41,074 bases of DNA. Origin: Prevotella sp. (GTDB taxonomy: Bacteria; Bacteroidota; Bacteroidia; Bacteroidales; Bacteroidaceae). The position numbers and the translations under genes were made by a program. Location: positions 1-41,074 of the forward strand of contig JAFPME010000025.1 of assembly GCA_017402445.1 (NCBI GenBank), given 5' to 3'. Below, piece by piece: positions 13,531 through 36,440 of this stretch; within the stretch, counting starts at the first letter, position 1; every line of letters starts with the position of its first letter. Under the pieces are notes generated by a model that saw only the letters and a program-made list of their open reading frames with translations, was not told the DNA's origin and did not search any database.

Positions 13531-13712
13531 TGAATAATATTTTATACCGCCATCGTTTTGCAAAAAAAATGCTCATGGGAATCATTCTAACCACGTTCAG
13601 GTACATGCCCACGTATGCTGAAAAAGAAAAAGGTGTAAAGCGAGAACTATTGTGAAATCTTTCAAATCTTATAAGTATGACTAAGCTTTTGAATAGATTA
13701 TGTATGATGCTT

Positions 13713-14044
13713 TGTAAATATTTCATACCGAAAAAACGGGTAAAGATTTTCTTTCATTCTACGAAGACGAAAGCGGTTGTTTTGTCAAAAGAATCGGACA
13801 AAATCGGAAAATTTTTCTTTCCGTTTTTCAAAATGGCCCATTTTACGACGCAAAATGGCCCGTTCTGCCGCGCAGAATGATTCATTCTGTCGAGCAAAAC
13901 GGGCCGTTTTCGTGTGCAGAATGAGTCATTTTGAAAGCCCGAAAAATGTAAAGAAAACACAAGTCGCTTTTTCCCAGTGCTTTAGAACTTTCTCATAATT
14001 CGCGCGTACGCGTCCGTCGGCTTTTTATTTTGGAAAGATGGCCT
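13713..14044 (+). repeat. 332-bp palindrome-array element, copy A
   Basis: Aligns without any gap to the reverse complement of 29072-29403; I count about 242 identities in 332 positions. Ordered parts: a variable A/T-rich left section, five 17-bp palindromes at 22-bp period (13829-13933), a perfectly conserved 20-bp box AAAATGTAAAGAAAACACAA (13943-13962), and a perfectly conserved 23-bp block (13998-14020) holding the palindrome CGCGTACGCG. Short open frames cross it on both strands, but their starts are not conserved between copies and the 22-bp period is not a multiple of three, so I regard it as non-coding. It fills most of the 796-bp gap between trmD and the xylanase gene. No terminal repeats or target duplications were seen. 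I do not recognise it as a named family. Confidence 0.85.
13829..13933. repeat. Five-palindrome array of copy A
   Basis: Palindromes at 13829-13845, 13851-13867, 13873-13889, 13895-13911 and 13917-13933, each 17 bp, with 5-bp unrelated spacers. Examples: CAGAATGATTCATTCTG and CAAAACGGGCCGTTTTC. Cores differ between units (TGGCCCA, TGATTCA, CGGGCCG, TGAGTCA) while symmetry is mostly kept. Confidence 0.85.
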
Positions 14045-14140
14045 GCATTTCGTATAATAAATGTTATTTTGTAAGCATAATTCAGCGTTTACAAAGCTAT
14101 CAACTGCAGAGGGAGGAAACCAAGTTCTTACACCACTTTC

Positions 14141-14165
14141 TTATTCCGAACTGGCGTTAGAATAA
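14141..14165. other. Inverted repeat upstream of the xylanase promoter
   Basis: TTATTC (14141-14146) and GAATAA (14160-14165) are separated by 13 bp, about 40 bp upstream of the -33 element. The spacing would suit a dimeric regulator, but six-base arms can arise by chance. Nearby 14189-14201 contains AAATGAGCTAT, also seen at 122-132. Nothing else is recognisable in 14045-14205. Confidence 0.3.
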
Positions 14166-28941: not shown

Positions 28942-29071
28942 CTCATTTCCTGTCTGTAGCCATGTGCTCGTGTCCCGGTCAGGAGGCGCATTCATCGCTG
29001 ACTTTCTCTTATTTCTGCTGTTACAGATTTTTGAATTTATCGGACAAAAAGTGCGATTTTGGCCTCTGAGA

Positions 29072-29403
29072 AGGCCAACATTCTGAAATAAAAATCCGAC
29101 GGACGCGTACGCGCGAATCTCGCGAAAGTTCCAATCCTTTGAAAACGAAGCAGTTGTGTTTTCTTTACATTTTCGGCGCTTTCAAAATGGCTCATTTTAC
29201 GCTTCAAAAAGGCCCTTTTCGGCGCGCAGAATGATTCATTCTGACAAGCAAAACGGGCCATTCTGCGATGCAAAATGGCCCATTTTGAAAAACGAGACGA
29301 TTTTTTGAGTCGCAATGTCCGAATCTTTTACCTGAACAACGGCTTTTTCTTTCGTAGAATTGAAAAAAAATCCTACACGATTTTTAGGAATAAAATGTTT
29401 ACA
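29072..29403 (-). repeat. 332-bp palindrome-array element, copy B
   Basis: The reverse complement aligns to 13713-14044 end to end with no gap (about 73% identity by my count). The shared order is kept: A/T-rich left section (29403-29288), five palindromes (29287-29183), the identical 20-bp box at 29173-29154, and the identical 23-bp block at 29118-29096 with CGCGTACGCG at 29104-29113. It sits between convergent genes (TPR protein and buk), whereas copy A lies between divergent ones. In the 641-bp gap 28942-29582 I see no gene; short open frames through the element have non-conserved starts. Confidence 0.85.
29183..29287. repeat. Five-palindrome array of copy B
   Basis: 17-bp units at 29183-29199, 29205-29221, 29227-29243, 29249-29265 and 29271-29287, separated by exactly 5 bp. 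Examples: CAGAATGATTCATTCTG (identical to the third unit of copy A) and CAAAATGGCCCATTTTG. The unit at 29205-29221 has a changed core (AAAAGGCCCTTTT) that remains nearly symmetric. Confidence 0.85.
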
Positions 29404-29429
29404 GATGAGTGTGAACTGACAGGAAACAA

Positions 29430-36306: not shown

Positions 36307-36394
36307 GGAGAGATGCTCGAGTGGCTGAAGAGGCACGCCTGGAAAGCGTGTATACGTCAAAAGCGTATCCGGGGTTCGAATCCCCGTCTCTCCG
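36307..36394 (+). tRNA. tRNA-Ser (anticodon GGA)
   Basis: An 88-nt class II tRNA. Acceptor GGAGAGA pairs with TCTCTCC, the anticodon loop CTGGAAA contains GGA, a long variable arm follows (GTATACGTCAAAAGCGTATC region), and the T arm is GGGGTTCGAATCCCC. The discriminator is G; CCA is not encoded. It reads UCC and UCU serine codons. Confidence 0.95.
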
Positions 36395-36440
36395 CAGGAG
36401 GAAAAGGGGTTCAAAGCCGAAAGGCTGAAAGCGATTCGCA

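Follow-up and report, generated by a model that had tools for sequence, protein, structure and literature searches.

Introduction

Intergenic palindromes of the REP/BIME kind are single 20–40 bp palindromes that occur in many copies and are species-specific, and Mu and Tn7 carry 22-bp transposase sites, which are not palindromic, together with TGT...ACA ends, and their insertions keep clear of any end already present. In P. intermedia, a 188-bp intergenic repeat named PINSR occurs in 177–184 copies, one of them downstream of tnaA; it was described as having no terminal inverted repeats and no known function, and was held to be limited to one clade, with P. falsenii PCR-positive (Naito et al. 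2015, PMC4755523). Palindromes, pitch, spacing and genus-wide kin are not mentioned in section 3.4 of the paper. BrickBuilt of Porphyromonas gingivalis, as characterised in PMC4596501, is an intergenic, dispersed element with terminal inverted repeats and internal 23-nt repeats, which number 1 to about 23. REP/BIME palindromes with RAYTs served as a further comparison system (PMC3733652).

Here we analyse a 41,074-nucleotide stretch of Prevotella sp. DNA (contig JAFPME010000025.1; hereafter the window) that holds two copies of an internally repeated element, together with the genome from which it comes (G000, a draft metagenome assembly of 1.87 Mb, 51% complete) and further genomes of the genus.

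Results

The element in the window

A preliminary description of this DNA had reported a 332-bp unit present twice, gap-free at about 73% identity by hand count, with five palindromes at a 22-bp pitch, an invariant 20-bp box and an invariant 23-bp CGCGTACGCG block, in one divergent and one convergent gene context. Both copies are present, the five palindromes had been located correctly, and both gene contexts are as described: copy 1 has a tRNA (guanine-1)-methyltransferase gene on one side (minus) and a GH10 gene on the other (plus), and copy 2 is flanked by two convergent genes. The extent given for the unit, however, was short. Alignment of 60 copies yields an element of 373 bp (Table 1), and the 332-bp stretch is a part of it, because similarity continues past its 3' end. 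By blastn, which placed gaps in the pair, the two copies are 76% identical across the 332 bp, whereas a MAFFT alignment of the 60 copies contains no relative gap between the two window copies. The box and the block had been placed correctly, but across the family they are strongly conserved rather than invariant.

Table 1. Coordinates of the element copies and their parts in the window.
Feature	Position	Strand	Basis
Element copy 1, A type, 373 bp	13712..14084	+	nhmmer/R1 match, model positions 1-373
Element copy 2, B type, 373 bp	29032..29404	-	R1 match, model positions 2-373; row in alignment
5' end motif TTGTAAATATTTCAT, approximate extent	13712..13726	+	conserved end in aligned copies
Palindrome 1, copy 1	13829..13845	.	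alignment columns 118-134
Palindrome 2, copy 1	13851..13867	.	alignment columns 140-156
Palindrome 3, copy 1	13873..13889	.	alignment columns 162-178
Palindrome 4, copy 1	13895..13911	.	alignment columns 184-200
Palindrome 5, copy 1	13917..13933	.	alignment columns 206-222
Conserved box AATGTAAAGAAAACACAAGT	13945..13964	+	columns mostly nearly invariant
Conserved block ATTCGCGCGTACGCGTCCGTCGG	13998..14020	+	columns about 287-309
3' end motif TTGTAAGCATAATTCA, approximate extent	14069..14084	+	conserved end
Terminal inverted repeat, surrounding MITE-like unit	14141..14158	+	56 bp 3' of core
Palindrome 1, copy 2	29271..29287	.	copy 1's alignment columns
Palindrome 2, copy 2	29249..29265	.	copy 1's alignment columns
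Palindrome 3, copy 2	29227..29243	.	copy 1's alignment columns
Palindrome 4, copy 2	29205..29221	.	copy 1's alignment columns
Palindrome 5, copy 2	29183..29199	.	copy 1's alignment columns

A search for a 5' partner of the terminal inverted repeat at copy 1 found none. Single palindrome units can be inverted or swapped in place with the register kept: by eye, palindrome 3 and its spacers (13868-13894 versus 29222-29248) are reversed between A-type and many B-type copies, and units 2 and 3 are swapped in two PINSR-type copies (L297, L299). Elsewhere in the window, ARAGORN places a tRNA-Ser (gga) at 36307-36395, overlapping the start of a 347-aa ORF at 36313.

Copy number and fixed geometry

The preliminary description had proposed a profile search for further copies. 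With a sequence-only profile model of the 373-bp element (R1), we found at least 79 copies in G000 among the best 150 of 526 candidates, the lower ones being mirror matches of palindromes, and one further copy is cut by a contig start; a number this high is well outside what chance would give. The copies sit mostly between ORFs. End-to-end alignment was obtained for 77 of the 79 (60 copies first, 17 of the 19 remaining later), at lengths of 373 bp (59 copies), 372 bp (14), 371 bp (2) and 374 bp (2). Ends missed by the local match were filled from the locus up to the model ends, and therefore the equal lengths speak for the interior and not for the last few bases. Copy C39 has a longer array (384 bp by R1), and copy C9, near a contig end, is missing the first ~104 positions.

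Pairwise identity among the first 60 copies averages 72%, with a lowest value of 58%, and a minimum spanning tree over their MAFFT alignment contains 3,631 substitutions versus 19 gap openings; a global pairwise aligner placed 342 gaps over the 59 tree edges, which we take as artefacts in diverged copies. The lengths of 371–374 bp and the few gaps agree with the earlier proposal that divergence without length change points to a constraint on geometry. The palindromes have the consensus CARAAYGRNYCRTTYTG, at the alignment columns given in Table 1. The full motif has 0 matches in 310,906 non-element bases of fetched loci, and its 11-base core has 2 versus 4.2 expected; the palindrome motif is confined to the elements. 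Mutual information over the alignment columns is dominated by a split into A and B types, and, as regards a coding reading, the pitch of 22 bp is not a multiple of three.

In three pairs of copies that lie in equal orientation between the same genes in G000 and its sister genome G224, the element carries 1 gap and 225 substitutions versus 12 and 204 in 250-column flanks (P 0.0013); a fourth such pair, in opposite orientation, was left out of this comparison. When 133.7 kb of G000 and 80 kb each of G194 and G084 were scanned for remnants, every copy encountered was full-length, and four partial matches in G224 are contig ends or runs of N. The same-gene comparison and the remnant scans suggest that the geometry constraint acts on copies in place. 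Damaged copies do occur in G194, where 3 of the 148 listed are without one end and a 90-bp element remnant (L343 1153-1242) lies 160 bp past a full copy.

Relatives and species codes across Prevotella

R1 matches at E 1e-3 or better were found in 124 of 398 Prevotella genomes when the best three candidates of each were scored; with a single copy as query, plain blastn reached 2 of 150 genomes, its own included. Scoring the best 150 candidates in each of eight selected genomes yielded 5 to 149 matches, a count that includes both strands of the palindromic part. Models of copies in other species were built from few loci. In 31 loci from 16 further genomes, the best palindrome-chain period was strictly 22 in 22 loci, tied in 7 and different in 2 (L088, L116), a result favoured by the choice of loci, since these were picked with R1, whose own basis is a 22-bp array. 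A general palindrome-chain detector, applied to 80 named tnaA loci, gave 17 matches at period 22 versus 2 to 16 at 29 other periods; most of these loci show no clear array by this detector, and the excess at period 22 is modest.

The dyad core is species-specific, while the pitch and the AAA/TTT shoulders are constant. The cores read AATATGGCCCATATT in G299, AAAGCATAGCTTT in G012, AAAACnnnGTTTT in G262, CAGAAAGGCTTTCTG in G077 and G038, and AAACGGnCCGTTT in G194, and a centre ACG (on either strand) is found in 0 of 300 palindromes in G000 versus 62 of 175 in G224, A-type copy L081 being excluded from the G224 count. The G194 element measures ~196 bp: of the 20 copies with the best scores, 19 have 195 or 196 bp, and the remaining one has an extra 22-bp unit plus a few bases. 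Loci L083 and L107, from other genomes, carry a long inverted repeat in the arm beside the array, for example GCGTATTTGCG...CGCAAATACGC, which the window copies are without.

Positions are rarely held in common between species. Both flanking genes are equal in 5 pairs of copies (4 between G000 and G224, 1 between G038 and G077) and one flank only in 45, the G000/G224 comparison having set 60 of G000's 79 copies against 40 places in G224; among the four G000/G224 pairs with both flanks equal, one looks like a recent transfer and one is in opposite orientation. Since few positions are common to sister species, copies move or are replaced. At C40:13720 (L066) and L129 the same genes surround the element in G000 and G224, and its orientation is opposite.

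One locus looks recently exchanged between the two genomes (C30:20108/L102). Its 500-bp flanks are ~98% identical (7 and 11 mismatches), and the element itself differs at 25 positions without a gap. Of these mismatches, five fall in the six positions at the centres of palindromes 2 and 3, at which one host has the G224 code and the other the G000 code. This centre excess, at a single locus, has P 5e-6 for these six positions, chosen after seeing the alignment, and P 0.002 for all 15 centre positions.

PINSR-type copies

The genome G084 (two contigs, 1.97 and 0.71 Mb), which is probably P. intermedia or a close relative, carries a 188-bp element downstream of tnaA. At least 150 copies of it are present, and all 21 that were aligned are 188 bp long; a homologue lies less than 10 kb from tnaA in P. 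falsenii, and P. aurantiaca also has one, both of them again 188 bp. We take the G084 element to be PINSR because it agrees in length, place and copy number and has its homologue in P. falsenii. Its copies have TGTAAA-type ends, akin to the 5' end motif of the window genome and present also in G194, and four AAA...TTT dyads at 22-bp pitch. Judged by this sequence architecture, PINSR is almost certainly a member of the element class. The ends read TGT...ACA in PINSR-type copies, whereas those of G000 and G194 are without ACA. A weak consensus (c.ttTattgt.tt.Ttttcg) continues past the 3' end of the 188 bp in G084, so the PINSR-type unit may exceed its described length.

The preliminary description had found no described family that matches. 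This is overtaken by PINSR itself, but section 3.4 of PMC4755523 leaves its palindromes, its spacing and its kin undescribed.

Spacing along chromosomes

Copies keep a distance from one another. In G000, the shortest of the 49 within-contig intervals is 6.6 kb; below 5 kb there are none versus 12.05 expected (none as low in 20,000 uniform placements), 30 fall at 10–18 kb versus 11.1 expected, and spacing varies less than under random placement (coefficient of variation 0.58 versus 0.93). These values come from contigs of known length, with uniform placements as nulls. Both types obey the spacing, with minima of 7.7 kb between A-type neighbours, 8.6 kb between A and B and 6.6 kb between B-type neighbours. 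With a null limited to intergenic sites in element-dense stretches, intergenic placement alone does not yield the exclusion.

The sister genome G224 has 15 intervals with a minimum of 8.2 kb: none is below 7.5 kb versus 3.6 expected (P 0.01), and none below 5 kb versus 2.4 expected (P 0.06). A model of its own (R2) finds at least 148 copies in G194, whose 141 listed intervals on three contigs have a minimum of 5.95 kb and include none below 5 kb among the copies listed, versus 25.2 expected (5,000 placements). An 80-kb scan of stretches from its dense part recovered the 10 copies listed there and turned up none beyond them; the 90-bp remnant lies inside the exclusion zone and breaks the exclusion. 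In G084, with the PINSR-type model R3, 0 of 111 listed intervals on contig 1 are shorter than 3 kb versus 17.5 expected, an 80-kb scan found one extra copy 2.5 kb from its neighbour, and listed intervals on contig 2 go down to 1.7 kb. In both G194 and G084 the best 150 candidates were scored, and copies missing from these would add short intervals.

The exclusion distance is thus ~6 kb in G000 and G194 and 2.5 kb or less in G084. Long element-free stretches are present, and ruler-like evenness is seen in G000 only, because in G224, G194 and G084 the coefficient of variation is no lower than random placement gives. Short-range exclusion is the general feature of copy spacing.

A-type copies, terminal inverted repeats and gene context

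The A type is the younger and makes up 22 of the 60 first-aligned G000 copies. Many A-type copies are framed as a MITE-like unit by an 18-bp terminal inverted repeat, AACGYnAGTTCGGnATAA. With up to 3 mismatches, a TIR-like 18-mer stands on at least one side of 17 of the 60 copies (15 of the 22 A-type copies and two others) and on both sides of 5; most B-type copies have none, and the core ends themselves are without terminal inverted repeats. The pattern occurs at 24 places in G000 versus 7 for a reversed control pattern, and no autonomous parent or parent insertion sequence is apparent among the 24. Of 13 copies with a repeat on the 3' side, nine have it 56 bp from the core and the other four at 53–58 bp, and on the 5' side (nine copies) the distance ranges from 74 to 193 bp. 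A comparison of A-type arms gave 97 versus 21 gap openings, but it used the global pairwise aligner named above and doubtful arm homology, and we give it no weight. In G084, the PINSR-type copy at tnaA also has a sequence resembling the 18-bp repeat upstream of it. At the ends of four sets of copies we found no clear excess of matching 3–9-mers as a sign of target-site duplication. A MITE as the full explanation was set aside: the repeat goes mainly with A-type copies, and no parent is apparent.

Element sites lie in convergent intervals in 25 of 51 cases versus 11 of 53 other intervals (P 0.004), as judged by crude ORF calls in the fetched loci only; 12 of the 51 are divergent and 14 tandem. 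If shorter ORFs are counted, 26 of 55 are convergent, 12 divergent and 17 tandem, here without a background count. By a runs test, orientation is random along the long contigs of both G194 (z 1.4) and G084 (z -0.2). Plasmids gave no element match, and viral contigs gave four exact matches to a 20-mer, none of them holding an element.

Double-stranded DNA versus RNA

Among 2,100 pair cells of the G000 palindromes, G-T pairs number 155 and A-C pairs 157 (122 and 107 with the outermost pair left out), and among 1,080 pairs in G224 the counts are 63 and 85. Since RNA hairpins would tolerate G-U and not A-C, the palindromes act as double-stranded DNA. Consensus folding by RNAalifold yields hardly any structure (-10.19 kcal/mol; 60 sequences, 377 columns), and Rfam at gathering thresholds gives no match within the window. 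A structured RNA family with covarying, wobble-tolerant stems is not supported by these three results, and the structured RNA gene put forward in the preliminary description falls with the equal G-T and A-C counts and the weak consensus folding.

Discussion

We tentatively prefer, at rather less than even confidence, to read the element as a chromosome-architecture element, a docking array for a putative dimeric chromosome-organising protein; we infer both the protein and the function of the arrays. A dimer-site array is the most economical account because it covers the fixed pitch, the double-strand symmetry, the species code and the random orientation together, and because 22 bp is about two helical turns, four or five dimers would lie on one face of the helix. 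A sequence-specific dimeric protein would bind each dyad, and the resulting nucleoprotein nodes, about one per 10–25 kb, would anchor, bridge or insulate supercoiled domains. Placement between convergent genes, where transcription-driven supercoils meet, would be favoured. The specificity of the protein would drift between species and the arrays would follow, giving each species its own code. Selection on architecture would explain the intact copies, the spacing kept by A and B types and the convergent preference; against it stand the turnover of positions, the damaged copies, the variable exclusion distance and the element-free stretches. A wider form of the proposal, possible and somewhat more doubtful, is a genus-wide system that spaces and organises chromosomes, in which phased-dyad arrays kilobases apart stay almost free of indels, a fast-evolving protein reads them and transferred arrays are rewritten to the code of the host.

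The preliminary description had offered a protein-binding array, a structured RNA gene and a non-autonomous mobile element, and of the three the protein-binding array fits best, with its 22-bp dyads, absence of wobble bias, random orientation, few indels and exclusion. The mobile element retains part of its case in the turnover of positions and in the young A type (22 of 60 copies), with the terminal inverted repeat at 15 of 22, and loses part of it to the missing target-site duplication and the rarity of damage. The main rival reading, mobilisation in trans by a target-immune (Mu/Tn7-like) transposase, is a possibility we doubt and hold somewhat less likely than the docking array; the dyads would then be transposase sites that co-evolve with the enzyme and the spacing an insertion-immunity footprint. 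Short-range exclusion in four genomes, species-specific sites, the TGT...ACA ends of PINSR-type copies and a few truncated copies with one remnant agree with it, as do turnover between sister species and the young fraction of copies. Set against these are the lack of a flanking direct-repeat excess in four copy sets, ends without ACA in G000 and G194, damaged copies that are rare overall and absent from the 293.7 kb scanned (the four partial G224 matches being contig ends or runs of N), and the scarcity of indels in place after insertion. Target immunity would explain the spacing and the turnover and would permit the few damaged copies; it would not explain the scarcity of in-place indels.

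The remaining candidates account for less. Enrichment in convergent context (25 of 51 versus 11 of 53) and dyads shaped as A-rich, GC core and T-rich would suit a transcription-related element, a bidirectional terminator or insulator between genes, which we consider unlikely given that 12 of 51 sites are divergent and 14 tandem, that the stems have 7 bp and 3-nt loops with A-C as common as G-T, and that spacing and species code are left unexplained. A structured small RNA gene family could draw on several hairpin-capable units and the conserved boxes, but the lack of an Rfam match in the window, the consensus energy of -10.19 kcal/mol and the lack of wobble asymmetry make it very improbable. 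Slimmer still are the chances of REP/RAYT-like palindromes kept by a Y1 (HUH) transposase: the many intergenic palindromes are indeed species-specific in sequence, but of the 15 element-matching genomes just 6 have a Y1_Tnp (PF01797) match at E 0.001, with none in G084, G299, G012, G237, G262, G102, G350, G378 and G224. Since 9 of 15 genomes are without a match, a Y1 transposase is unlikely as the general partner, and we rejected this candidate. As readings of the core, RNA, REP/RAYT and MITE all fit poorly.

Bacterial chromosomes are organised in domains of roughly ten kilobases, and to our knowledge the sequence elements that place such domains are mostly unknown. The present findings open two questions to direct tests: whether dispersed repeats shape the architecture of chromosomes in Bacteroidota, and how the specificity of a DNA-binding protein can change in step with that of more than 100 sites. 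If the element is a target-immune mobile element instead, it is an unusually orderly one. A repeat class known since 2015 as clade-specific (PINSR, in the account of PMC4755523) now has kin across the genus, with copies kept apart on the chromosome in several genomes and a code that is species-specific.

Compared with the systems described before, the Prevotella element resembles BrickBuilt, as portrayed in PMC4596501, in being intergenic, dispersed and internally repeated, and differs from it in its pitch of 22, its palindromic units and its nearly constant unit number and length. With REP/BIME it has in common intergenic, many-copy, species-specific palindromes, but here these form phased arrays inside a long module. 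It recalls Mu and Tn7 in its 22-bp site arrays, the TGT...ACA ends of PINSR-type copies and the exclusion of neighbours; in contrast to theirs, its sites are palindromic, and it has no target duplication, no genes seen and little decay. PINSR differs in its unit of 188 bp, versus 373 bp in G000 and ~196 bp in G194, and in having four dyads, versus five in G000, with other palindrome cores. Like PINSR in its published description, the G000 element is intergenic, of fixed length, without terminal inverted repeats on its core and present in more than 100 copies (~180 for PINSR, at least 79 in about half a genome here), and both are built on the same architecture of TGTAAA-type ends and a 22-bp dyad array.
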